Origin: Nitrospira sp.
GTDB taxonomy: Bacteria; Nitrospirota; Nitrospiria; Nitrospirales; Nitrospiraceae
Assembly: GCA_021323395.1 (NCBI GenBank)
Contig: JAJONL010000027.1
Span: forward strand, 1-47,969
Direction of reading: 5' to 3'
Length of the DNA stretch: 47,969 nucleotides
A program made the position numbers and the translations under genes. Within the stretch, counting starts at the first letter, position 1; the number at the start of each line of letters is the position of its first letter. Positions 7,548 through 21,416 of this stretch are shown piece after piece. A model generated the notes under the pieces. The model was given only the letters and a program-made list of their open reading frames with translations. It was not told the DNA's origin and searched no databases.

Positions 7548-8072
7548 TCAATTCTTGAGAACAGTCCGCCAGAAAAACAGCTTGGCCCAGAAAAATCCTG
7601 CCCACGGCAGGAAATAGGCCGCGACCGGATACACCGCTCCATACACCACGGCCATTGTTGAGCCAAACAAGAGCAACGCCAGACCGGCCATGTAGGCGAC
7701 GGGAGCCCAGGGGGACCCGCTGGGCGAGTCCTGGTTCGTCCCTGTGTCACGCTTAGGGCGCCCGCTCTTTTTGAGCATCGGCTGCCGCATGCGCGCGGCG
7801 AACACCTCGGGACGATAGCGAAGAATCCACCGATGATAGGTAGTCTGTACCCAACCCAGCACCCCTCCCAGCAGCAGCAACCCGGAACTTTGCAAAAAGG
7901 TCTCCCAGGTGTAGGTGTCGGTCGCAATAAGTTGGTATCCCAAGCCACCGACGCCCCCGGCCATGGAGATTAAGCCGAGAATACCGGCCGGGAATAACAT
8001 GTAGGCTTTCACATAGGCAGTCGCTTTTGCCTCCAGCCCTTCTTGCTGTTTGACTGTCACAAGTTTTGGCAT
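7548..8072 (-). CDS. Membrane protein of unknown function
   Basis: The 174-residue protein has four likely membrane segments, at about residues 24-45, 59-79, 122-143 and 146-166. A basic cytoplasmic loop at about 85-120 contains a Lys/Arg/Ser-rich stretch. I do not recognise a named family. It converges on lpxD with a 15-base gap and is followed upstream by about 330 bases without a gene, so it is probably transcribed alone. Codon use and GC content look like the neighbours, which supports it as a real gene. Confidence 0.7.
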   Translation of the reverse strand: MPKLVTVKQQEGLEAKATAYVKAYMLFPAGILGLISMAGGVGGLGYQLIATDTYTWETFLQSSGLLLLGGVLGWVQTTYHRWILRYRPEVFAARMRQPMLKKSGRPKRDTGTNQDSPSGSPWAPVAYMAGLALLLFGSTMAVVYGAVYPVAAYFLPWAGFFWAKLFFWRTVLKN

Positions 8073-8402: not shown

Positions 8403-10484
8403 CTATGACAAAGGCAAGATGTCGAATATGGCCGCCCGTTCAACCCGGCCGACATCAACCCACTGTTGAGCCAATGGCACCAACGCGCTCACCCGTTCCT
8501 TCACCGCGTTCAAGCGTTCGCGCACGGCAGTCGGCTTCTGACGGATCGTAACACGGAGAAATGTGCGTAACCCGCTTAGAAACAGTGCGATGTTTGCGGC
8601 TGACACCCGCTCCGCCGAGTCAGACAGAATGTCGATCTCGTCAAAGATCGGCTCCAACGCCTGCGAAGGAAGAAGGGGTTCCCCGCCGGTGCGATCGATA
8701 TGGGCCAGCGTGGCCAGCACAGCTGGAACATGCGCCTGAATCTGAGCAAGAAATCGTTCATCCAGCTCGTCCAGGTCTTTCAGAATACGGCCGATGGTCC
8801 GAGCATCGACAACCTCTTCGCCATGGTCTATCTTGCGCTCACACCATTGAATGACCGTCTCCAGCACGTCACGCACAGGTTGAATCGACCGTCCGCGCGC
8901 CGCATGCAATTGTCGCAAGGCATCGAAAATAGCCGGGGAAGATAGTACTCGATGAGTCGCATGTTGTTCGGGTTGCTCCCTCTGGCCAGGTGGTTCGTCG
9001 GTCATCAACTGTAAAGCGCCTTCGCGCTGTGTGCATGTCGATGCGGCGTCGGCGTGGACCACGTCTCCCTGCGTCACCTCCTCAACCTGCTCCAGGTCCT
9101 GCACCGTCTTGGTGATCTGGAGCAGTCCTTCGCGAAGCGAAGCCACATGATGCGCCGCGACGGTTCGTTCATGTTTACCGGCCGCTTGAAGGATCGGCAG
9201 CAGGGTCGTGGCCATGTCCTCCACGGCTGTTAAGCCTACGGCCGCGGCGGAGCGGGCGAGATTGCTTACACTCTGCCACACAATCGTAGCCAATTTGACG
9301 CGACGAGGCTGCTCGCTCGTCGTGTCCAATCGTTCTAACGCCGTCTGAATCTGGTTGAGCCATTCACGAGCCTCCAACACGAACAGGCCGAGGATTTCCC
9401 GTCTCACGTGTATGGCCTGATCAGTATGATCCTGTGCCGACGGAGTCTGATCGGCGGAAGCAGAAGCCGGAGATTTCTCCACCGCAGCCTGAATCACGCC
9501 GGCAATCGCATCAAGGCTTTCGAGTAATGCGGCAAACTGATCCGAGGCGCTTGGAGAAGACGGCGCCGCTTCAATCGCTGGCGGGAAAGACGCGAAGGTG
9601 ATCCGCTCCGGGGTCGGCGGATCGACCGTCTCCGCGACGTACAGATGGGGCAACAGGCTCAGATCGAGATCACGCGGCACGGCGGTCGCAGCCTCCTCTC
9701 TCGTGACCCGGAGGACCGGGCGCGAAGGATAGAGGGGCGTGATACGGACGACCACTCCTTCCTCCCCGCTATTCAAACGAACTTTCGTTCCTAATGGATA
9801 CACCGAGAGCTGTTCGACCAAGGCTTTCATGATTTCACGCGGAAACGCCGTACGTTCGGTGTTGAGTAATTCGCGGATGGCTTCGTGAGGGAGGAGGCGC
9901 CGCCGGTAGGGACGCGGACTGATGAGTGCATCGAAAATGTCGATGAGGCCGATGATTTGGGCCAGTTCGTTGATCTCTCGCCCCTTCAAGCGATTGGGAT
10001 ATCCCTGCCCTTTGCCCCGCTCATGGGCCTGCAGCACCACGTCAGCTAGCCAGGCGTATTCCGATCCGAGTTGTTCAATGATTCCGCATCCCAGACGAGG
10101 ATGTTGTTCGACCAGGGCTCGCTCCTCCTGAGACAGGCGTCCGGTTTTGGTGAACAGGTCCTGCGGCACCGCGAAAATGCCGATATCGTGAACCAGTCCG
10201 GCCAATGCCAATCGCCGTAATTCCGTGCCATAGTAGCCGAGACCGATGCCCACCTTCGTGCCCAGAATGCTCACATTGATGAGATTCGTCATCAGGGGAG
10301 GGCCGGAGGGACTCGAGAGCGCCTCGACGACCAACTGATCGTTCTCTTGAATCGAATCGACGATGTTTCCGGCCCGCTGGATTAGCTCTGTAAGATCGAT
10401 CCGTTCCCCTCCTTGAACGGCGCTTACCACCCCCATGAGGGCCATTTCAGCCTGTCGATATCGATTCTGTCCCGTCTCCTCCAT
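8403..10484 (-). CDS. Degenerate HD-GYP protein with HPt-like and shared C-terminal domains
   Basis: I start this 693-residue protein at the ATG at 10484, preceded by AAAAGGA; a TTG at 10532 would add 16 residues. Residues about 60-210 match an HD-GYP domain (GLVHDIG, EQHPRLGCGII, HERGKGQGYP, DIFDAL). Key positions differ from active c-di-GMP phosphodiesterases: the first metal His is Asn67, HDIGK is HDIGI, HHER is AHER, and the Asp before GxGYP is Lys. After a linker comes an HPt-like helical domain (NLARSAAAVGL) without the phosphoacceptor His. A last domain (about 500-693) resembles the end of the next gene upstream. It is the final gene of the chemosensory operon. It may read rather than degrade c-di-GMP, which is inference. 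Confidence 0.82.
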   Translation of the reverse strand: MEETGQNRYRQAEMALMGVVSAVQGGERIDLTELIQRAGNIVDSIQENDQLVVEALSSPSGPPLMTNLINVSILGTKVGIGLGYYGTELRRLALAGLVHDIGIFAVPQDLFTKTGRLSQEERALVEQHPRLGCGIIEQLGSEYAWLADVVLQAHERGKGQGYPNRLKGREINELAQIIGLIDIFDALISPRPYRRRLLPHEAIRELLNTERTAFPREIMKALVEQLSVYPLGTKVRLNSGEEGVVVRITPLYPSRPVLRVTREEAATAVPRDLDLSLLPHLYVAETVDPPTPERITFASFPPAIEAAPSSPSASDQFAALLESLDAIAGVIQAAVEKSPASASADQTPSAQDHTDQAIHVRREILGLFVLEAREWLNQIQTALERLDTTSEQPRRVKLATIVWQSVSNLARSAAAVGLTAVEDMATTLLPILQAAGKHERTVAAHHVASLREGLLQITKTVQDLEQVEEVTQGDVVHADAASTCTQREGALQLMTDEPPGQREQPEQHATHRVLSSPAIFDALRQLHAARGRSIQPVRDVLETVIQWCERKIDHGEEVVDARTIGRILKDLDELDERFLAQIQAHVPAVLATLAHIDRTGGEPLLPSQALEPIFDEIDILSDSAERVSAANIALFLSGLRTFLRVTIRQKPTAVRERLNAVKERVSALVPLAQQWVDVGRVERAAIFDILPLS

Positions 10485-10678
10485 TTCAATCCTTTTCCTT
10501 CGACGCTGCCCCGTCGTCAGCTCAAAAGGCAAGCCTGTTTTATCCTCACCATGGCGTCTCTGCTATCTCGACTCGTCAGTCGATATCGTCGCTTCATGGA
10601 CGGCACAACGGATGCGACCTGAGGTTTCGACATCGGGACAAAGGGGCCGGCGCGAATACAGATGAGGTGTGAGTGTGG

Positions 10679-11626
10679 TCAAGCGACCGGCAGTAGTCTC
10701 CCCATCGCATCCCGTTCCTGTTCTCCGGCCGTGATCCATTCCTCGATGGTGACCAGTACGGCACGAATGCGTGTTTCCACCGCCTGTACACGCTGCGAAG
10801 AGATGACGATGCGATGTTGAACGATGAGCGACAAAAAACTTTGAAGTCCCGCCAGGAAGGTAACGAGTGGGGTGGCCTGCGCCTGCTTTGCAATACCTTG
10901 AAGATGTTCGATATTCAGCATGCATCTGTGCAGCATATGGCCAGGTTCCAGGGCCGTCAATCCCTCCGTGCGGAACTTGACGAGACTCTGAGCCACAACC
11001 GGCAATTGTTGTCGCAACGATTCCAGGCATTGCACATCAGCCACTTGAAGCTCCTGCAGCATCTGATGAAAGCTGACGGCCTGAATCTGATCGGCCCCTT
11101 GCCTGGCTTTATGTTCCAAACGCTGCATGACGTAAGGTATAAGGCTACGGGTCGACACTCCCTCCACCTTATAATCTTCCTGAAGAGTTCGCAGCGCATT
11201 CAGAAGGGTGAGAAGGTCCGCGGTCGGTGCTGCCTGCGTGGTCGGCTCTTGGGAAAACCCAAGATCAAGGGTAATGCCGGTAGCCGTCGTGACAGACGTT
11301 ATGACGATGCTGAACTGCTCACGGACCGTCGCGTAGTCTTGTCTCGTGGCAGTGGTCCGGTCTTTGAGGGTGTCGATAAACGGCAGCAGAGAGAAGGTGG
11401 CCCGTTCCACCTCGGAAAGATTCACCGTGGCGGCAGACCCGCCGAGACTGGTAATCCCTCGTACGACGGCATCCACGAGTTGCGTGTGGCGATCGAGGTC
11501 CGGCTGGTTCTCAAGTTCGATCAACGCCGAATGGATTTGAATGAGCCACTCGTGGGCTTCTTGGCCGAACAGTTCGACCAATTCCTTTTGAAAGTCGTCG
11601 TCGGTTTTTTCCGGTTCGGCTGACAC
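10679..11626 (-). CDS. HPt-like chemosensory accessory protein without the active His
   Basis: About 315 residues from the GTG at 11626, preceded by AGGA; an earlier GTG at 11653 has no ribosome site. The N-terminal part (DFQKELVELFGQEAHEWLI) looks like an HPt/CheA-P1 domain, but where HxLKGSA is expected it reads TSLGGSAATVN, so phosphorylatable His and the following Lys are missing. The C-terminal 100 residues (VTFLAGLQSFLSLIVQ to the end) align by eye with the C-terminus of the downstream HD-GYP-like protein. It sits between the receiver-coiled-coil gene and that protein in the chemosensory operon. It is likely a docking or scaffold element; no established family was recognised. Confidence 0.75.
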   Translation of the reverse strand: MSAEPEKTDDDFQKELVELFGQEAHEWLIQIHSALIELENQPDLDRHTQLVDAVVRGITSLGGSAATVNLSEVERATFSLLPFIDTLKDRTTATRQDYATVREQFSIVITSVTTATGITLDLGFSQEPTTQAAPTADLLTLLNALRTLQEDYKVEGVSTRSLIPYVMQRLEHKARQGADQIQAVSFHQMLQELQVADVQCLESLRQQLPVVAQSLVKFRTEGLTALEPGHMLHRCMLNIEHLQGIAKQAQATPLVTFLAGLQSFLSLIVQHRIVISSQRVQAVETRIRAVLVTIEEWITAGEQERDAMGRLLPVA

Positions 11627-11683
11627 GATGGCATCCTGCCTCGACCCGCGCACTCGCCCGAGAGGGGACCGGGTGAAGGTCTG

Positions 11684-13159
11684 CTAGCGTTTCCCGTTCC
11701 CAAGTTGAGACGCAAGTCCCGCAATCTCGCCGAGTTTTCGCGCCATGTCTTCGAATCGTCGGTTAGACTGCTCAGCCAGATGTTCGGCTTCCGTCGCACG
11801 CTTCGTCAATTGCGATGAACGCTCTCGCTCTTCGGCCAGGGCAAGATCGAGACCGTGTGCATGCTCCACGGCAATTTCCAATTGTTTGACCTGTGTCACG
11901 ACCACGGCTGCCGTTTCGCGCTCCGCCGCGAGAATGCCGTCAAGTTCCACAAGGCGTGCCCGCTCTTGCTCGAGAGCATGTTCGAGATCCGGGACCCGAG
12001 CAGCAAGAGTCTCGAATGCAGCGCTTTGCTTGCGGCAAGCCGCCGCCTGTTCCCGCTCATCTGCAAGCGTCGTTTCGAGTTCATGCGCCCGCCGTTCGAT
12101 ATGTTCGAGGGCGGTAATTTGCTGAACCAATTGAGCTGCCGCGCCACGTTCTGCCGCAAGATGCGACTCCAGATCAGCAATGCGAGACTCGTGGCGGGCA
12201 TTGTCAGCGACAAGTGGTAAGAGCTCCTCTATGCGCCGATGAGCCTCGGCCAGCTGAGGTTCTAACTGATCGACCTTGCGAGCACGATCTGAGATCTCGT
12301 CGAGCTGTTCGGCGAGACGCGCACGCTGTGCGCGTTCCTCTGCCACGGATTGATCAAGGGCTTCAGTGCGTGCGTCTAACTCCGCGATGCGCTCCGTTTG
12401 TTTTTCCAACGCATTCTGCAGCTGCTGTACCTGTTCCTGACCCTGCCGACGTTCCGAAGCGAGCTGGTCCTCAAGTTCCGCAATTCGAGTCTCGCGTTGC
12501 GCCAAAAGGTCCGCCTGACAGGCAGCTTCCTTTGAAAACGTCGGCTCAACGGTCATCTGCCGTGCGACCGGCGAGAGCGCCTCAGAGCCGCTCTCCTCGA
12601 CAGGCTTTACGTCCGGCTCTGAAAACGGCACGCTGCCACAGTCGCTCGATTCTTTGAGCTCACAGGCTGCCTCGATCGCCACTTCGGGCGCTGCCGCCAC
12701 CTGTGCCATCGACGCACCGGGTTCCCTAACGACCGACGGTGCATGGTGGCTTGCTGAGGAGAGTGGCTCCGGCATCAGCGCAGGTTTGGACTGCCGTTTC
12801 ATCAATAAATCGAGGACCCGATCTTTCAGCGAAGTACCCTGAAACGGCTTCTTCAATACGCCATCAGCTTTGCAGAAGTCCGCCTGCCGAGACACTTCGT
12901 CGTTCACTATTCCGCTGATCAACAGCACGGGAATGTCCGCAAGATTGGCCTGCGCGCGGATGAAGGCACACACCTCATACCCGCTCTTGTCCGGCATAAT
13001 CACATCGGACACGATTAAATCCGGACGATCCTTACTGACAAGCGCCAGCGCCTCCGACCCATTGGCAGCCAAGGTGACGCCCATTCCGGCCTCGGTCAGC
13101 AGACGCTCGGCCACCTTACGAACTGCAATACTGTCATCGGCAATCAAAATCTTGGGCAT
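11684..13159 (-). CDS. Response regulator receiver fused to a long coiled coil
   Basis: The 491-residue protein opens with a canonical receiver (about 1-120): acidic pocket Asp8/Asp9, phosphoacceptor Asp52 in LIVSDVIMPD, and the Lys of KKPF. After a variable linker (about 125-215) the rest is a long heptad-type coiled coil rich in Glu, Ala, Gln and Arg (about 220-490) with recurring AELE/AERE units. There is no DNA-binding or enzymatic output domain. I start it at the ATG at 13159 behind AAGAGGAA; an upstream start overlaps the CheW-like gene. The protein probably receives phosphate from the operon's CheA and acts through protein contacts or oligomerisation. Confidence 0.88.
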   Translation of the reverse strand: MPKILIADDSIAVRKVAERLLTEAGMGVTLAANGSEALALVSKDRPDLIVSDVIMPDKSGYEVCAFIRAQANLADIPVLLISGIVNDEVSRQADFCKADGVLKKPFQGTSLKDRVLDLLMKRQSKPALMPEPLSSASHHAPSVVREPGASMAQVAAAPEVAIEAACELKESSDCGSVPFSEPDVKPVEESGSEALSPVARQMTVEPTFSKEAACQADLLAQRETRIAELEDQLASERRQGQEQVQQLQNALEKQTERIAELDARTEALDQSVAEERAQRARLAEQLDEISDRARKVDQLEPQLAEAHRRIEELLPLVADNARHESRIADLESHLAAERGAAAQLVQQITALEHIERRAHELETTLADEREQAAACRKQSAAFETLAARVPDLEHALEQERARLVELDGILAAERETAAVVVTQVKQLEIAVEHAHGLDLALAEERERSSQLTKRATEAEHLAEQSNRRFEDMARKLGEIAGLASQLGNGKR

Positions 13160-13184
13160 GTCGTTCCTCTTGACGAGGCGGGGC

Positions 13185-13664
13185 TCATCGTGTCGACCGG
13201 ATCGATGAGACTCCAAGAGTCGTCAGGTTGATGATGGGAAGCTCTTCTTCGCCGGCCACGCACGATCCGGCGATGTCGGGATCGTTCTCGGCTCGGTAGC
13301 GTATCGATGTGCGCGCCACCATGTGAAGTGAAGGTACTTGTGAATCGATACAAATTGCCATCGGGCCATCAATGTGTTTGACGATCAAACACAAGGGATC
13401 AGAATCATGCATGGTTCGGTTTAACTTGGCTGCTAGATCAAACACGGGGAGACAATGCTTCTCATGGCGGACAAGCGCGGCCACGAACGGCGTGTCACTG
13501 GGAACAGTGGTCGCCCCAGGCCAGGGCATGACCCCACCAATTTCGTCGGTCCTGGCAGCCATGCGTTGACCTGCCACCGAAAATACGACCAGGCCCTGCA
13601 TCCGTGCTTCGGCGGTCTTTTTCGTGCTGGCTTGCGCCTGTCTTCGTAATTGAGCGCGTAACAA
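13185..13664 (-). CDS. CheW-like adaptor protein
   Basis: The 159-residue protein is a single CheW-type domain after a basic N-terminal tail: LVVFSVAGQRMAARTDEIGGVM, then LPVFDLAAKLN and LPIINLTTLG at the expected positions. The TTG start at 13664 is preceded by GAGGAGG. CheW proteins link receptors to CheA in chemosensory arrays. The domain is divergent and is the third CheW-like gene in the operon, next to another at 13681. It may pair with the receiver-coiled-coil protein or with an alternative receptor, which is inference. Confidence 0.8.
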   Translation of the reverse strand: MLRAQLRRQAQASTKKTAEARMQGLVVFSVAGQRMAARTDEIGGVMPWPGATTVPSDTPFVAALVRHEKHCLPVFDLAAKLNRTMHDSDPLCLIVKHIDGPMAICIDSQVPSLHMVARTSIRYRAENDPDIAGSCVAGEEELPIINLTTLGVSSIRSTR

Positions 13665-13680
13665 CCTTCCTCCTCGAATT

Positions 13681-14253
13681 TTATTTCAACAGAGACATCC
13701 GTGCCGGCGCGGCGCTCTCGATGGGGGGCAAGGGCAGGCGAAGCCCGCTCTCAACTGCTCCCGCATGGCGTTCAGGAGCATGAAGGGCAAAGGCATCGAG
13801 AACGTTATTACGAAGCGGTAGCTCAAGGACCCAGAAAGGGTTCGCAATGAGAGCGACCCACGTCACATTGACAAAGAGGCCCAGCAACCGATTGCATTCT
13901 CCTCCTCGAAATTGCGCCGGGAGCGCCTGTATCTGCGCTCGACCCACGTCCACAAGTCCCACAACCCTCTCGACCATGAACGATCGAGACCGTTGGTCAT
14001 TCCCGTACAGCACAACTCTAGTCTCCGCGGTAGGGATTTGGCCACCAATCGCGAAGCGGCCGGCGAGATCGGTCCGCTCATAGGTTGCATGGGCCCAGGT
14101 GACGAGCTCTTCACCTCCGGCCTCTGCAAGCGAGATGATACCGCGAACCCAATGGGCCGGAAAAGCGACGTGGGTAGGTCCGATGAGCACCACCAGAAAC
14201 CTCACCGTCTGGCTACCTGAGACGATTTCGGTCTTATGTCCTCGAAGGCCCAT
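13681..14253 (-). CDS. Divergent CheW-like protein
   Basis: A 190-residue protein with a recognisable but divergent CheW domain: RFLVVLIGPTHVAFPAHWVRGI resembles the first beta strands, followed by a RVVLY...MVERVVGLVDV section and LIANPFWVLEL. It lies between the CheA hybrid (46 bases away) and the next CheW-like gene, so it is part of the operon. The C-terminal 40 residues are Pro/Ala-rich and probably disordered. The assignment rests on pattern and context, and is less secure than for the other two CheW-like genes. Confidence 0.7.
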   Translation of the reverse strand: MGLRGHKTEIVSGSQTVRFLVVLIGPTHVAFPAHWVRGIISLAEAGGEELVTWAHATYERTDLAGRFAIGGQIPTAETRVVLYGNDQRSRSFMVERVVGLVDVGRAQIQALPAQFRGGECNRLLGLFVNVTWVALIANPFWVLELPLRNNVLDAFALHAPERHAGAVESGLRLPLPPIESAAPARMSLLK

Positions 14254-14299: not shown

Positions 14300-17200
14300 C
14301 TAATGTCTGACTCCGGCTTCACGACCCGTCCAGTGCTGGACTTCTTGGATCAAGGCCCGCTCTTCCACTGGTTTGGCGATATACCCAGATGCGCCGACAC
14401 TAGCGGCCATCTGACGATGTTTTTCACCCGCCCGTGTGGTCATCACGAGAATGGGAGTCGCATGCGTCTGGGGTCTCGCACGCAGCGCCTGAATCACTTC
14501 GTATCCATTCAACTTGGGCATTTCAAGATCGGTGATGATCAGCTGATAAGAGTGCATCAGCGCTTTGCGGCAGCCTTCTTCTCCATCTGTTGCCGTATCC
14601 ACTGTATAACCTGCCGCCTCAAGCATTCGCCCCACAAATTTTCTGATGCTGAGGGAGTCGTCGATCAACAAGAGCCGCTGTCGTTTGTCCGAATTTTGTG
14701 CGGTGAGCTCCTGTGGCGGCCCGTCGAGCGAGGAAGACAGGAGATCGCCCTGCCCTATCGACGGTCCCTCATGATATTCACGCGTTGTGAGCCGGCTTAC
14801 ATCCAGCACCAACACAATGCGTCCCTCGGGATCGATGGTGGCGCCTCCGAATACCGACCGCTCGTATGGCTTGAAGGATCCCAAGGACTTGATGACGATT
14901 TCTTGGCGTCCCAGTAGCTCATCGACCGCACAGCCGAGTGCACCTGTCGAGGTTCGGACGACAACGACTGGCTTCGAACCATCAATAGCGCCGGCTTCCC
15001 GACGAATGAGGCGTCCGAGCGGAAAGACCTCGATAGCCTCGTCGCCGATTTGCATCACGGAGCGATCTCCCATCTGCTGGATCGTCGAGGCGGTCGACAT
15101 CGTGACCTCTCGGACACTGGGGAGCGGGATCGCGTAACGATCCTTTTCGACTCGGACGAGCAAAGCAGTCGCGATCAGGAGGGTGAGCGGCAAATGCATC
15201 GTGAACTTTGTGCCCTGCCCTCGCACCGATTCCACCTCGATGTGCCCGTTCATGGTCTCGATGACGCGTTTGACTACATCCATTCCGACACCGCGTCCGG
15301 CTTGATCACCGACCGTCTCCGCGGTAGAGAACCCGGGCAGGAAAATGAACTTGATCACTTCGGTCTCGGGTAATGATTCCGCCGCGTCCAGCCTCACTAA
15401 TCCCAGCTTCACGGCCTTGGCCTTGATCTTCGCGATATCCAAACCAGCGCCGTCGTCTTCCACTTCGATAAGGACGGAATTACCGCGATGGGCCGCGTGA
15501 AGGTAAATCGTGCCGACGGCTGGTTTGCCCTGGCTCAGGCGGGTCTCTGCGGGCTCGATCCCATGGTAGACGGCATTCCGAACCAAGTGAACAAGGGGAT
15601 CGACGAGACGCTCGACAACGCCGGTATCGATTTCGGTATGTTCACCCGACGTCACCAAATTGACTTCCTTGCCTGTGGCACGCGCCATTTCACGAGCGGC
15701 TCGCCGGAACCGCGTAAAGGGTGTCCCGATCGGGACCATCCGAGCACGGGCGATCTCATCGCGCATGCCCAACGTCAGCTGCTGCAACTGTCCCATATCG
15801 TCTTGGGCGCGATGGATCGAGCCTGTCAACTGCGACATGGATTCAGTAATGTCCGCCGTCACTTCGCTGATGCGCCGAGCCAAGATGTTGAAGTCGTCGT
15901 ACTTGTCGAACTCCAAGCTTCCGAAATCACTCACCCCGGCAAGAGATTGCAGAACCTCGTCGCCCTGTGTCGCAGGAGACGGCTGAAAAGAAAACGTGTG
16001 CTTGTCCTCGAACGTCCGGACCGCGTCGGTTAATCGGTTTTTATTGGCCACGACCTGTGAGGCCAGCTGATCCAATGTCCGTAACCGCTGCTCCAGGCGT
16101 CCTCGATCAATAACCAATTCACCCACCAGATTCAGCAGACGCTCCAAGCGCTCACGGCTGACTCGGATCACCTCCCGCTCTTCTCCGGTCTTCCCCTCCC
16201 CGCCTCTGGATGATTCGGTCTCGACGGCGTCGCTCTTCTCTTCAGCGGGTGTTACTTCTGAAGCCATTGGTATAGTCGTGGATATGACGTCGGATGTCGA
16301 TGGGTCTTTCCCCAGTTGCTTCAACTCCTGCAATGAAGCCGCAAAACGCTGGCGCGTCCGTCCTAGTATTGAGGAATCACGCCGCATGAGGGCACGAATC
16401 ACGTCGATCGCCCGCAGCAGCACATCGGTGTGACCAGGCAGCAACTGAAGGTGCCCCTCGCGGACGGCTCCCATGAAGTCTTCGATATGATGCGTGAGAT
16501 CACCGATCGCTTGAAAACCGACGGTATGCGCCGACCCCTTGAGGGTATGGGCGGTGCGAAATAATTGATGGATCGCTTCCGAATCGGGCACATTCTGATC
16601 GATCCGCAACAAATCGGCCTCGAGACTTTCCAAGTACTCCTGGGCTTCTGGCGCGAAATAGGACATTACTTCGGCGTCGAGACTGGGAATCAGATAATCT
16701 TCCGCAAGCACGCTCGAATCGTCCGCGTTCGGCGGTGGCGTGACAAGTCCAACGGGAGACGGGTCTGCCTGCCTGGTCTGGTGCACCGCTGTTCCCTCAT
16801 CATGATCCGTCTGCGATACGATGGCCGAAGGGTGGCCCGTCCCCTCCTCCAATTCTCGAAGGAGAGTCTTGATGAGAGGCACATCCTGCTGCAAACGCGG
16901 CACTGAATGCGGATCTCGCCCCATAAGGGAGCGGATTACTTGAACAGCCTGCCTCATCACCGGGATCCAATGGGGAGCAATATTCGCGTGACCTTCTCGA
17001 ACCGCGATCAGGCAGGCTTCGATCGGATGGGCGATATCTCCCACTACCTGAAACCCGACGGTATAGGCCGACCCTTTCAAAGTGTGAGCCACCCGGTAGA
17101 GCTGATGCGTCGTCTCAGGGTCCCGCAAATCGGCTTCCAACCTCTGAAGCAGCGTGTGAATGGTATTGAGATATTCGTCGGCTTCGGGAGAGAAGTACGA

Positions 17201-17683
17201 CAGCACTTCGTCGTCGAGGGTAGGAATGAGGTAGTCCTCCGGCGGAGCGGCCAAAGAATCGCCATGCGGTTCCGTGGCATCGACGGAATGAGCAGGAATC
17301 AAGTCGCGGCATCGCCGTACGAAGCTCTCGACCACGGATGAGTCCTCACCTCCGCCTCGTCCAATGTGTTCCACTTGAGTTCGAAAGGAGGCGACGATGT
17401 CCCGAATCACTTGAAGAACCGCTGGCCACCGTTCGACAGGAACCTCTCTCACCTGTTCCAAGGTCTCTTCGAGCAACCCTCCAAGTTGGCCAAGCCCGGC
17501 AAATCCATACAGCAGCGCCGCTCCCTTCAACTTGTGGCCCACCGCGTGAAACTCCGCTACTTCTCTCGGTTCAGGATGCGCTTTGCCATCCGGATGCAAG
17601 GCTGTCCAGAACCGTTTCATATCGTCACCGGCCTCGGCGACGAAAATGTCCAGCAACTGGTCGCGATCAAATTCAGGGCTCAT
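14300..17683 (-). CDS. CheA hybrid histidine kinase with three HPt domains and a receiver
   Basis: The 1127-residue protein has, in order: HPt1 (His50 in GHKLKGAA), HPt2 (His200 in AHTLKGSA), HPt3 (AHTLKGSA again, near residue 372), a linker, a dimerisation helix (RLERLLNLVGELVIDRG), a HATPase domain with N box HLVRNAVYHG and glycine boxes DDGAGLD and GRGVGMDVV, a CheW-like domain, and a C-terminal receiver (DDS..., TDLEMP, KPVE). HPt2 and HPt3 with their EDYLIP leaders are a tandem duplication. This matches ChpA/PilL-type kinases of Pil-Chp systems rather than flagellar CheA. It sits directly downstream of the receptor gene. It is the central kinase of the operon and can move phosphate to its own and separate receivers. 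Confidence 0.95.
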   Translation of the reverse strand: MSPEFDRDQLLDIFVAEAGDDMKRFWTALHPDGKAHPEPREVAEFHAVGHKLKGAALLYGFAGLGQLGGLLEETLEQVREVPVERWPAVLQVIRDIVASFRTQVEHIGRGGGEDSSVVESFVRRCRDLIPAHSVDATEPHGDSLAAPPEDYLIPTLDDEVLSYFSPEADEYLNTIHTLLQRLEADLRDPETTHQLYRVAHTLKGSAYTVGFQVVGDIAHPIEACLIAVREGHANIAPHWIPVMRQAVQVIRSLMGRDPHSVPRLQQDVPLIKTLLRELEEGTGHPSAIVSQTDHDEGTAVHQTRQADPSPVGLVTPPPNADDSSVLAEDYLIPSLDAEVMSYFAPEAQEYLESLEADLLRIDQNVPDSEAIHQLFRTAHTLKGSAHTVGFQAIGDLTHHIEDFMGAVREGHLQLLPGHTDVLLRAIDVIRALMRRDSSILGRTRQRFAASLQELKQLGKDPSTSDVISTTIPMASEVTPAEEKSDAVETESSRGGEGKTGEEREVIRVSRERLERLLNLVGELVIDRGRLEQRLRTLDQLASQVVANKNRLTDAVRTFEDKHTFSFQPSPATQGDEVLQSLAGVSDFGSLEFDKYDDFNILARRISEVTADITESMSQLTGSIHRAQDDMGQLQQLTLGMRDEIARARMVPIGTPFTRFRRAAREMARATGKEVNLVTSGEHTEIDTGVVERLVDPLVHLVRNAVYHGIEPAETRLSQGKPAVGTIYLHAAHRGNSVLIEVEDDGAGLDIAKIKAKAVKLGLVRLDAAESLPETEVIKFIFLPGFSTAETVGDQAGRGVGMDVVKRVIETMNGHIEVESVRGQGTKFTMHLPLTLLIATALLVRVEKDRYAIPLPSVREVTMSTASTIQQMGDRSVMQIGDEAIEVFPLGRLIRREAGAIDGSKPVVVVRTSTGALGCAVDELLGRQEIVIKSLGSFKPYERSVFGGATIDPEGRIVLVLDVSRLTTREYHEGPSIGQGDLLSSSLDGPPQELTAQNSDKRQRLLLIDDSLSIRKFVGRMLEAAGYTVDTATDGEEGCRKALMHSYQLIITDLEMPKLNGYEVIQALRARPQTHATPILVMTTRAGEKHRQMAASVGASGYIAKPVEERALIQEVQHWTGREAGVRH

Positions 17684-17736: not shown

Positions 17737-19611
17737 TCATGCAAGTTTGAACTGAGCGACCGATGAGTTGAGTCCCTCGGCCAATTTTGCCATGTCCTCG
17801 ATCGTGAGCCGCGTAGAGTCGGTTTGCTTTTGCGTCGCTACCGCGCCGCCGGTGAACTCTTTAATGGCCCGGCCGACTTTTTCTGTCGATGCCGTCTGCT
17901 CGGACGCGGCGCTGGCGATGTTCTGAGCCAATTCGGAGGACCGTTTGGCAATGTCTGAAATTTCAGCGAACACGTCACCGGTTCGAAGGGCCGAGGCGGA
18001 TCCCGCTTCCACGGCCTGGGTTTCATGTTCCATGGCGACGACCGCATCCTGCGTTTCGGTCTGAATCACTTTCACGAGATCGGCGATTTCGCGCGTGGCC
18101 TGCGTGGAGCTTTCCGCCAGTTTTCGAACCTGATCGGCGACGACGGCGAACCGCGCACCGGCCTCACCGGCACCGGCCGCCTCGATGGCGGCATTCAGGG
18201 CCAGCAAGTTCGTTTGATTAGCGATATCCCGAATCGTCGACACAATTTGAGAAATTTCGAGTGACCGATCGCCGAGTCCCTTAACCTGCTTGGACATGCG
18301 TTGTACGGCGGACCGAATACTCTGCATGTCGCGCACCGTTTCCTGCACCGCCACGTTGCCTCGTTCCGTCGCTGAGAGCACCTGTTTGGCTGAGTCCGAA
18401 GATGCGCCGGCGGTGGTCGCCACCTGTCGCATACCAGCGGCTAATTGTTCGACGGCGCCCAGCGTGCGCACGGACTCTTCGGCCTGTGTCCGAGCGGTGC
18501 CGGACATTTGGCCGGCTGAATCTCGAAGCGTACCCGCGGATTTATTGACGCGATCGGCTGCTTCACGCACCTGCTTCAGCAATTGTCCAAATCGCGCGAT
18601 CATGAGGTTGAAACCGTCCGCGAGGTTGCCGAACATGTCCGCCGTCACCTCACCTCGTTTCGTCAGGTCTCCTTTACCGACTTCCGACACGAGCACCAGA
18701 AACTGCATCAGCCGTTTCTGCATGATATCGCGTTCTTCCTCGGTAGACACAAGGGTTGTAATACGGTCGAGCATGGAATTGAACGCCGTGGCCATCTGGC
18801 CCAGCTCGTCATGCGACTGAATTTTCGCGCGAGCTTGCAGGTTTCCGCCGGCGGCCTGAGTAGCCACGTTGGCAATGTGCGTAATGCCACGCGACAGGAA
18901 CGTCGCCAGGACATAGCCGACGAAAATTCCGAGCGCCACGGCGACAAGACCGCCGACGACGAGGATGAATGTACCGGTGGACGCCAGGGTTTGCGCATCG
19001 TCGTTGAGATCCTTGGCGACCGCCTCGATGCTGGTGACCTGCTCATTGTGGCGCTTCACGGCAGTTTCGAAAGACGGCGTCAAGTTGACGGTCAGGGCTA
19101 ATACACCCAGAGCCCGCATTTGTTCGGCCTGTCCCGAGGACAGGCTGTTACGGTCGAAGCTGTCCGCCATGGCGCTCAAGGCACCCTCTGCGTCTTGGAA
19201 GTATTTCTTCAGGGCCGGTTCAAACAACGTCAGGTCTCTGGTTTCATCGCGGCCGGAACGCGATGCCCGCAGAGTCGTGCTCTTATAGTTATTCAACACC
19301 TTCTCAATCTCCGCCTTCAGGGGGGCGAGCTTGGTCACTTCCTGCGCGAAGTCGCCCTGCTTCGTAGCAGACGCGACATCCAGCAAAATTTGGTGATGCT
19401 TGGTCAGCGCCGTTCCCATCTGCGCAAATTCGGCCAGCGGCACCGTATAATCGACGTAGACGGTTTGCGACTGGCTGCTGAGTTGCCGCAACGTAAACAC
19501 ACCGACGCTGGCCATCATCATGATGATGACGCTCACCAAGCCGAAACTGACCAGCAGTTTCGACTGGGTTTTCATATCTTGGAATCGATTCTTGACGCCT
19601 TGCCCGATCAT
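17737..19611 (-). CDS. Methyl-accepting chemotaxis receptor, PilJ-like
   Basis: The 624-residue protein has a first membrane helix at about 20-42, a periplasmic helical sensor (about 45-205), a second helix at about 212-238, a HAMP domain (about 238-290), a second HAMP-like segment, and a cytoplasmic signalling hairpin (about 365-615). The hairpin tip ([21 protein letters not shown]) is the conserved CheA/CheW contact. The ATG at 19611 has AAGGAGG; an earlier frame start lacks one. There is no C-terminal NWETF-type CheR tether and no CheR/CheB gene nearby. It probably senses a periplasmic or membrane signal, possibly together with the heme protein encoded at the operon head. Confidence 0.93.
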
Positions 19612-19707
19612 GGTCCACTCCTCCTTGTTCGCTGCATCCCTCAACAGTCGGCGGCCCGTCGCAAAGCTCCGACGACGCTCGCCCGCCACGCTTCATATCA
19701 TTGCTGG

Positions 19708-20253
19708 TTATGCCGCCGACAATGTGACACTGCCTCCATCGATTTGGGCGAACACTTGCGGCACCTCCAAGACCCCTCCCAGATGCTCGTCCAGTCGAAG
19801 TACCGCCGATATGCAGGGGCGGGAACCGGCTGGTCCGGCTTGCATGGCAGGCAACAGGTGCTCGCGAGAAACGGTATGAATTTCAGGAACATGATCGACC
19901 AGCAATCCGATGTGTCTTGCGCCTTGGCGAATCACGACCGCGAAGGGTAAAGCGGCGTGATTGATCGTCAGGCCCAGCATTCCTCGCAGGTCAATCAAGG
20001 ACACGACGGTTCCTCGAAGATTCGTGACACCCGTCAATAAAGCGGGCATACCCGGAACAACGGTCACCGATTCCACCTCGAACACTTCGGTGACGTGGCG
20101 GAGATCAATGGCGAAGCGTTCCCCCCCCAGCGTCAACACGCACATGCGCAGGGTGCCTTCGGATACCGCAGAGGAGAATCTCGAGGAATGAGCCACTCCG
20201 TGAGCCGGGGTTGATTCGAGCGGTTGGAACTGAGTCGTCGGGACGTCACTCAT
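19708..20253 (-). CDS. CheW adaptor protein, PilI-like
   Basis: A 181-residue protein with a well-conserved CheW domain after a 30-residue tail: LTLGGERFAIDLRHVTEVFEVE, VTNLRGTVVSLIDLRGMLG and GLLVDHVPEIHTVS. It starts 3 bases after the stop of the PilG-like receiver, and the receptor gene follows. It is the main candidate for the adaptor coupling the receptor to the CheA hybrid. The assignment to PilI rests on gene order (receiver-CheW-receptor-CheA), as in Pil-Chp clusters. Confidence 0.93.
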   Translation of the reverse strand: MSDVPTTQFQPLESTPAHGVAHSSRFSSAVSEGTLRMCVLTLGGERFAIDLRHVTEVFEVESVTVVPGMPALLTGVTNLRGTVVSLIDLRGMLGLTINHAALPFAVVIRQGARHIGLLVDHVPEIHTVSREHLLPAMQAGPAGSRPCISAVLRLDEHLGGVLEVPQVFAQIDGGSVTLSAA

Positions 20254-20256
20254 GGG

Positions 20257-20619
20257 TTAATTCAGCGCCCGCTTTACGGCTGCGACCAAGTCTTCCGCCT
20301 TGAACGGTTTTACAACGTAGCCGTTCGCCCCCTGCTGCTGGCCCCAAAATTTGTCGCTTTCCTGCCCCTTGGAGGTGCAGAGCACGATAGGAATGCCCTT
20401 GAACCGGTCGTCACTCTTAAGGTCACGGCAAGTCTGAAAGCCGTTGCGCCCAGGCATGACGACATCCAAGACGATCAGGTCCGGCTTGTCGACCGCCAGT
20501 TTATCTTCGAGTTTATCCGTATTGGGATACGAGACTACGGTATGGTTGGCGGACTTCAAGTACCCTTCGATCAACTGCAATTCGGCATAGGAATCGTCGA
20601 CGACAACAATCTTGCTCAT
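20257..20619 (-). CDS. Stand-alone response regulator, PilG/PilH-like
   Basis: A single 120-residue receiver with Asp8/Asp9, phosphoacceptor Asp52 (DLIVLDVVMP), the Thr/Ser switch CTSKG and the conserved Lys in VVKPF. The motif PGRNGFQTCRDLKSD is typical of PilG/PilH-type receivers. The start has GGAGG 9 bases upstream. It is probably the output regulator phosphorylated by the CheA hybrid, acting by binding other proteins. It lies 62 bases downstream of the heme protein gene. Confidence 0.92.
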   Translation of the reverse strand: MSKIVVVDDSYAELQLIEGYLKSANHTVVSYPNTDKLEDKLAVDKPDLIVLDVVMPGRNGFQTCRDLKSDDRFKGIPIVLCTSKGQESDKFWGQQQGANGYVVKPFKAEDLVAAVKRALN

Positions 20620-20681
20620 GAATGCATCCTCCCCTTAACCCAGATAAATGTGCGAGTTTCAACTTGTCGGATGAGTGCCGG

Positions 20682-21416
20682 TTACCGCATGGGAATGACG
20701 ATACTGATCGCGCCCGCCAAGTCGCCCTCATGCCACCCTTCCTTCTTGGCGCCTGTGATGTCTCGTTCCCCTTTCGGGCTGCCATGGCAACCCAGGCAGG
20801 TGGGCGCAGCGTACTCAGGATCCATCATTCGAAGCACCGGCTTTCCGTCCAGCATCGTGGCTTTGCTATAGGGCTGGCCCTTGGGATGACGTGAGTCGGC
20901 AAATACACGGAGCACTTCCGACTCGAAATCGTCCGGCCGATTACCCGGAAAGCGATAGTCGGTGCCCGTCAGCTTGACGCGAATGCCGGTCTTGCGATAG
21001 AAGCGCTCTCCCGCCTTACGGGCAAAAACGGCCGGAATCATCCCCTTGAACCCGACGTCTTTCTTATTGATAACCGGCTGGGCTTCGTCGATGACTTCCT
21101 TCTCTGATTCGACCATCGCGAGAAACAGCGGAGCTTGTGGGGAGCTATTAGGACGGATCAGATCGATCTTTGTCGCCTTGCGAAACCGTTCTATGATTTG
21201 ATTGGCGACATAGTCGCCGGTAAAGCCTTTATCGCCTTTACTCGCATCGTTGATCGTCGCTTGATGTTCGGAGATGAGACCGCGGCCTACCTGCACGAGC
21301 TTAATCAATAACTCGGCGGTCTCGACCTCGGTATTGGCTAACGCGGGACCCGCTGCGCCAATACTGCTCACCATCAATGCGACCACCGCAGATGCTTTGA
21401 TGAAATTGTTCGCCAT
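20682..21416 (-). CDS. Periplasmic c-type heme protein, DUF3365/Tll0287-like
   Basis: The 244-residue protein has a Sec signal peptide (SAVVALMVSSIGAAGPALA, cleavage near 27). A DUF3365/Tll0287-like sensor fold follows, and one c-type heme motif CLGCH (Cys207, Cys210, His211) lies near the C-terminus. Related proteins are heme-binding PAS-like sensors or the input domains of histidine kinases and receptors. The start follows GGAGGAG. It heads the chemosensory operon, 62 bases before the receiver gene, which suggests a soluble periplasmic redox or gas sensor feeding the PilJ-like receptor. The link is inferred from position only. Confidence 0.85.
   Translation of the reverse strand: MANNFIKASAVVALMVSSIGAAGPALANTEVETAELLIKLVQVGRGLISEHQATINDASKGDKGFTGDYVANQIIERFRKATKIDLIRPNSSPQAPLFLAMVESEKEVIDEAQPVINKKDVGFKGMIPAVFARKAGERFYRKTGIRVKLTGTDYRFPGNRPDDFESEVLRVFADSRHPKGQPYSKATMLDGKPVLRMMDPEYAAPTCLGCHGSPKGERDITGAKKEGWHEGDLAGAISIVIPMR

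Follow-up and report, generated by a model that had tools for sequence, protein, structure and literature searches.

Bacteria of the genus Nitrospira, which inhabit biofilms and flocs, are major nitrite oxidizers and comammox organisms. In the Nitrospira genome studied here (3.5 Mb), a chemosensory cluster on the minus strand of a 48 kb contig, which is the whole stretch of DNA analysed and which we refer to as the window, ends in two genes whose products, P0002 and P0001, look like HPt proteins that have lost their phosphoacceptor. The question raised by this locus is what two such proteins do at the end of an operon that also encodes a CheA with His-bearing HPts of its own. A sequence-only reading of the window had described them as neighboring, diverged paralogs of CheA P1-type domains that lost phosphotransfer, kept the fold, and share a new C-terminal domain.

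The Chemosensory Cluster

Based on open reading frames and Pfam matches, the cluster is transcribed from a Tll0287-like gene through a single receiver, a CheW, and a chemoreceptor (4HB-HAMP-MCP), which together span 17737–21416 on the minus strand and whose gene order is kept across Nitrospirales. These are followed on the same strand by a hybrid CheA with three His-bearing HPts and a receiver (14300–17683), two CheW-like genes that match Pfam CheW (13185–14253, with the individual genes at 13185–13664 and 13681–14253), a receiver plus coiled-coil protein (11684–13216; Response_reg) that is the operon neighbor of the two study proteins, and finally P0002 and P0001. The order of the operon is conserved across Nitrospirales with P0001 and P0002 at its end. 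The receivers of the cluster retain the acidic pair, the Asp, the Thr/Ser, and the Lys, and the phosphorylation residues of the receiver plus coiled-coil protein are intact in 101 relatives.

A receiver, a CheW, a chemoreceptor, and a multi-HPt hybrid CheA in one cluster, together with type IV pili in the genome, correspond to a Pil-Chp-type make-up, and judging from this gene content the cluster is a Pil-Chp-like (pilus-type) chemosensory operon. There are no pilus genes next to the cluster within the window; PilT/PilU-like genes are encoded in the genome, and a pilus output is therefore possible. The cluster may control type IV pili.

Several other features of the locus vary among genomes. 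The receiver plus coiled-coil protein is present in nearly every chemosensory locus examined and ranges from ~230 to 570 aa depending on the lineage. The Tll0287-like gene (20682–21416, minus strand) heads the cluster in many, not all, loci and could encode a separate periplasmic sensor of the array. Just past the cluster, 7548–8072 on the minus strand encodes a short predicted membrane protein of ~174 aa without NCBIfam annotation; in most loci its gene lies between the cluster and an lpxD encoded on the opposite strand.

Both Proteins Contain a CheA P1-Type HPt Bundle

The two proteins correspond to real, adjacent open reading frames on the minus strand. P0002 is a standalone pseudo-HPt protein encoded at 10679–11626 (likely start GTG at 11626; longest frame 10679–11653), and a homolog was found in every chemosensory locus fetched. 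P0001, encoded at 8403–10484 (likely start ATG at 10484; longest frame 8403–10532), is a fusion of an HD-GYP domain, a pseudo-HPt, and a C-terminal domain, and has 54 distinct fusion relatives. The description of the pair as HPt-like therefore holds for both proteins and is incomplete for P0001, in which the HD-GYP domain, itself degenerate, had gone unmentioned.

The HPt-like four-helix bundle comprises residues 19–125 of P0002 (11279–11599, minus strand), as delimited by a CheA P1 profile match and the structural model, and residues 377–480 of P0001 (9093–9404, minus strand), which were located by BLASTP to P0002. Single sequences match the Pfam Hpt model weakly and below the cut-off, with e values of 0.56 for P0001 and 0.0066 for P0002; among standalone family members, 21 of 21 match it, the best with an e value of 9.6e-14. 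A profile of the family matches the P1 domain of Thermotoga maritima CheA (1tqg, e value 2e-7; 2ld6, e value 4e-8), and in this match the His-containing stretch of CheA P1 lines up with TNLGGSAAT. Profile–profile comparison, which the sequence-only reading had named among the ways to check its proposal, finds the CheA HPts of the same operons at 90–97% probability, with a p value of 5e-11 to the third of them (HPt3).

Structures were predicted for single chains of P0002 and P0001, and the resulting models have a mean pLDDT of 90 and 75, respectively, with disordered linkers in P0001. The P0002 bundle superimposes on 1tqg with a Z score of 13.3 (rmsd 2.3 over 104 residues), and the P0001 bundle does so with a Z score of 15.7 (rmsd 2.1 over 103 residues). 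These values exceed most of those for unrelated helical proteins; because helical bundles score high in general, and many matches with Z scores of 10–14 are to BRIL or unrelated bundles, we trusted helical Z scores for CheA P1 and HD-GYP only, and it is the sequence evidence that carries weight for the HPt identity. We conclude that P0001 and P0002 each contain a CheA P1-type HPt four-helix bundle, in agreement with the proposed descent from such domains with retention of the fold.

The Phosphoacceptor Has Been Lost and the Domain Maintained

Where CheA P1 reads H-T-L-K-G-x-A, P0001 reads S-N-L-A-R-S-A and P0002 reads T-S-L-G-G-S-A, as had been noticed from the two sequences, and both the His and the Lys are missing. 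The degenerate motif of P0002, TSLGGSAATV, is encoded at 11423–11452 (minus strand) and has Thr68 in place of the His and Gly71 in place of the Lys; that of P0001, SNLARSAAAV, is encoded at 9237–9266 (minus strand) and has Ser423 and Ala426 at these positions. Relatives from Nitrospirales extend this pattern, with no His at the acceptor site in any of 160 sequences. The His position is occupied by Thr (98), Ala (7), or Asn (1) in 106 distinct standalone relatives and by Thr (32), Ser (10), Asn (8), or Gly (4) in 54 fusion tails. Three residues farther on, the Lys is replaced by Gly, Met, Ala, or Val in 105 of 106 standalone proteins and by Ala or Gly in all 54 fusions. The Leu after the His position and the following S-A do not vary in either set, nor does GSAAT among the standalone proteins. 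In the CheA proteins encoded at these loci (~100 sequences), all three HPts have the His wherever the alignment column is filled.

The loss of the acceptor in the family is ancestral and fixed. The dN/dS ratio of P0002 is ~0.10–0.12 against close relatives; for both genes it is 0.10–0.17 overall and reaches 0.05 in the pseudo-HPt of P0001. Pseudogene decay of P0001 and P0002 was considered and is rejected by these ratios (0.05–0.17), which show purifying selection on both genes; the domain is a maintained, non-phosphorylatable one.

The Similarity Spans the Whole Common Region

The initial comparison had aligned the last ~100 residues of the two proteins by eye. This similarity is real: in an alignment of the last 100 residues the score is 118, and shuffled sequences give a mean of 26 (SD 4.9) with none of 1,000 shuffles as high. 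It is not confined to the C-termini, however. The HPt parts score 126 versus 29 for shuffled sequences and the middle parts 61 versus 27, again with none of 1,000 shuffles reaching the observed score, and BLASTP aligns residues 377–709 of P0001 with residues 22–324 of P0002 (e value 6e-25, 27% identity, 333 aligned columns). The shuffle tests and the BLASTP alignment therefore show that the likeness covers the entire region. Both points on which the sequence-only reading could have failed, the four-helix bundle and the likeness of the two C-termini, thus held up.

The C-terminal part of this region was proposed to be a new domain. In P0002 it consists of residues 147–320 (10694–11215, minus strand), which form six helices predicted with high confidence, and its counterpart in P0001 lies at 8415–8936 (minus strand). 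No family was found for it in searches of Pfam, NCBIfam, or PDB sequences; no Pfam family besides Hpt matches more than 1 of the 21 standalone members; and a Foldseek search returned no full-length structural relative with an e value under 0.001. Designed four-helix bundles match the domain weakly (6fes, e value 8e-5; 2lch, e value 0.004), which speaks for compatibility of fold at most. A comparison of the C-terminal profile with that of the HPt part aligns 93 columns almost without gaps at a weak p value of 0.003, and, in a comparable register, a comparison with CheA HPt3 aligns 79 columns (p value 0.08); control comparisons gave short spurious matches, one of which, to CheA HPt2, had a similar p value over 26 columns. 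The domain is common to both proteins, as proposed, and may be not a new one but a further HPt-like bundle that has diverged more than the first, an assignment for which these profile alignments are suggestive only.

The HD-GYP Domain of P0001 Has an Incomplete Metal Site

Residues 101–227 of P0001 match the HD domain of HD-GYP proteins (PF13487, HD_5; e value 4e-26), and the domain is encoded at 9843–10280 on the minus strand. It has the same fold as the HD-GYP proteins Bd1817 (3tmd, Z score 22) and PmGH (4mcw, Z score 16). PmGH has all eight metal ligands, and P0001 lacks three of these. In an alignment to PmGH, P0001 has Asn at H189 (Asn83; codon at 10284–10286, minus strand), Ala at H276 (Ala169; codon at 10026–10028, minus strand), so that the motif reads AHER instead of HHER, Pro at E185, and Ile at K225. 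The position of H189 is Asn in 89 of 89 relatives and that of H276 is Ala in 83 and Val in 6, and the full set of metal ligands (seven are common to both HD-GYP groups) is consequently absent throughout; E185 is replaced by Pro or Ser and K225 by Leu, Ile, or Val. The HD residues (H221 and D222), H250, H277, D305, D308, and the GYP positions are kept in these relatives, as are the positions of R314 and K317, the latter being Arg in the P0001 family.

In PmGH, activity is abolished by H189A and by H276A, and it is lost or much reduced when any of H189, H276, and K225 is replaced by Ala (PMC4159591). RpfG lacks the ligands equivalent to PmGH H189 and E185 and is still active (PMC4159591). Three other alignable HD-GYP proteins of the same genome read HHER, and one of these also lacks the Lys at K225. 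Because RpfG is active and because K225 is replaced in an HHE-bearing HD-GYP protein, the case for an inactive domain rests mainly on H276. From its residues, then, the HD-GYP domain of P0001 is degenerate, with key active-site residues lost. Since metal ligands for hydrolysis are among them, its most likely role is to bind c-di-GMP or another partner; for c-di-GMP, binding without cleavage is probable, and DvhD is a precedent.

Origin and Distribution of the Fusion

Three states of the operon occur at the same position, namely no HD-GYP gene (in outer lineages), an HD-GYP gene alone, and an HD-GYP gene with the pseudo-HPt tail. A maximum-likelihood tree built from 68 tails places 21 of the 22 fusion tails in a single clade (support 100/99) and the standalone copies from HD-GYP-bearing lineages in another (98/97). 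P0001 arose by duplication of the standalone gene, the copy of which was fused to the neighboring HD-GYP protein. Within the standalone clade, several lineages that have the HD-GYP gene alone are neighbors of lineages with the fusion, suggesting that the tail has probably also been lost, and the presence of HD-GYP proteins without a tail in some lineages indicates that the fusion is not indispensable.

In the loci L052 (5410–9245) and L055 (9260–13502), the fusion tail is nearest to the neighboring standalone copy. This is shown for L052, the tail of which groups with its own standalone copy in the maximum-likelihood tree, suggesting a second fusion or gene conversion. The number of HPts in CheA and the presence of HD-GYP also seem to vary in step, with three HPts and ~1127 aa in the hybrid CheA of the window (14300–17683) and ~950 aa in outer lineages without the HD-GYP gene.

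Matches from 12 genomes outside Nitrospirales were considered as family members and rejected, given that they cover the HPt part only, within frames of 591–897 aa; in the 10 of these 12 genomes with a recognizable motif, all read H-x-LKG and are ordinary CheA-like HPts. A scan of contigs across genomes for TNLGGSAAT found the pattern almost only in Nitrospirota, although a pattern this narrow says nothing on absence elsewhere. One copy on a contig labeled Omnitrophota (L103) groups inside the Nitrospira sequences, and this contig is probably mis-binned.

What the Two Proteins May Do

With the residues for both relay and enzymatic activity lost, P0001 and P0002 are probably docking or sensing parts, not enzymes; the sequence-only reading had likewise suggested docking partners. 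The explanation that we favor, and to which we give an even chance, is that P0002 is a FimL-like pseudo-HPt scaffold and that P0001 is a duplicated copy fused to a pseudo-HD-GYP domain that likely binds c-di-GMP and signals to the array. In a chemosensory system of the type IV pilus kind (Pil-Chp-like), P0002 would serve as a scaffold with an HPt fold that cannot be phosphorylated. Its pseudo-HPt would keep the receiver-docking surface without being able to carry a phosphoryl group, and P0002 could then retain a receiver near the array, or compete for one, with no relay of phosphate; the candidates are the single receiver, the coiled-coil receiver, and the receiver of CheA. Such docking of receivers is what we infer by analogy with FimL for both pseudo-HPts. 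The HD-GYP domain of P0001 would bind c-di-GMP or another partner instead of hydrolyzing it, and its ligand state might be passed via the pseudo-HPt tail to the array. A stronger version, which we regard as possible and on balance doubtful, holds that P0001 is doubly dead and that the state of its c-di-GMP-binding pseudo-HD-GYP is relayed to a pseudo-HPt docked on receivers or CheA, so that c-di-GMP directly gates the phosphorelay without catalysis, in an operon found throughout this lineage of nitrifying Nitrospira.

Other explanations were weighed against this one. The tails could be decoys or inhibitors of CheA that stand in for the genuine P1 domains at the P4 domain of the kinase or at its dimer surface; they have the same fold, and their closest profile relationship is precisely to the HPts of the same-operon CheA, HPt3 in particular. 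The P1–P4 contact in CheA, however, is weak and centered on the His, and we consider a decoy decidedly unlikely. That P0001 is a phosphodiesterase active on c-di-GMP, with a binuclear site of an unusual kind and its tail targeting the activity to the array or allowing receivers to regulate it there, is an unlikely reading with more in its favor, as Asn can ligate metal and the HD, H250, H277, D305, D308, and GYP positions are invariant in the 89 relatives. The activity of RpfG without two PmGH ligands agrees with it; the loss of PmGH activity in either H189A or H276A (PMC4159591) opposes it, as does the Ala or Val at the H276 position in 89 of 89 relatives, when the three other aligned HD-GYP proteins of the genome have HHE.

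The residues at the acceptor site also bear on whether the pseudo-HPts might transfer phosphate through Thr/Ser, as proposed for the Tpt/Spt domains of ChpA. Thr is found there in 98 of 106 standalone proteins and Thr or Ser in 42 of 54 fusions; but the site is also Ala (7) or Asn (1) in the former and Asn (8) or Gly (4) in the latter, the Lys has been lost as well, and in ChpA only five Xpt domains, all with His, show phosphotransfer (PMC12632253), making such a role highly improbable. If the preferred explanation, a pseudo-HPt scaffold with a duplicated, c-di-GMP-sensing copy, is true, then two enzyme folds, both without catalysis, form one protein that couples c-di-GMP to a pilus-type phosphorelay. 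The signature is strict (T-N-L-G-G-S-A-A-T in the HPt, and N and A-H-E in HD-GYP), and both halves are easy to test.

Comparison with Known Systems

No description of a pseudo-HPt and pseudo-HD-GYP architecture, nor of a Nitrospira chemosensory array meeting c-di-GMP, was found in the literature searched, which included few subscription papers. A case of an HD-GYP protein in contact with a chemosensory system is the RpfG–WspR coupling in Lysobacter (PMC9758175); these are, unlike P0001, two separate proteins from separate systems without a pseudo-HPt.

In function, the closest precedent is FimL of Pseudomonas aeruginosa, which has two HPt-like domains with Gln at both acceptor sites (PMC3019171); it interacts with PilG and FimV, and together with ChpA it recruits the receiver PilG to the poles (PMC10519157). 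Like P0002, FimL is not a kinase and stands as a protein of its own, has HPt-like domains that lack the acceptor His, and is tied to a Pil-Chp system (PMC3019171; PMC10519157). It differs from P0001 and P0002 in being homologous to the N-terminus of ChpA, in having Gln at the site, and in lacking a fusion to HD-GYP, and the likeness is one of description and HPt fold. In ChpA, the non-phosphorylated Xpt domains have been proposed to be scaffolds (PMC12632253). These silent domains resemble P0001 and P0002 in having the HPt fold with Ser/Thr or no phosphotransfer (PMC12632253); they sit inside the kinase, whereas the pseudo-HPts described here are separate proteins outside CheA. If our explanation is true, it would also favor the idea, still an open one, that such silent domains of ChpA serve as scaffolds for binding. 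The P1 domain of T. maritima CheA (1tqg) shares its fold (Z scores 13–16) and profile (e value 2e-7) with the bundles of P0001 and P0002, in which its His45 and the following Lys are replaced. For the other half of P0001, DvhD of Desulfovibrio vulgaris is an inactive HD-GYP protein that binds c-di-GMP without cleaving it (PMC13090378). DvhD (9rbz) is like P0001 an HD-GYP protein without a complete metal site (Z score 15.6); unlike P0001, which keeps the HD motif and is fused to a pseudo-HPt, it no longer has that motif and is a membrane receptor that carries PAS and dCache domains. Each half of P0001 has precedents, in FimL and the silent Xpt domains of ChpA on one side and in DvhD on the other.
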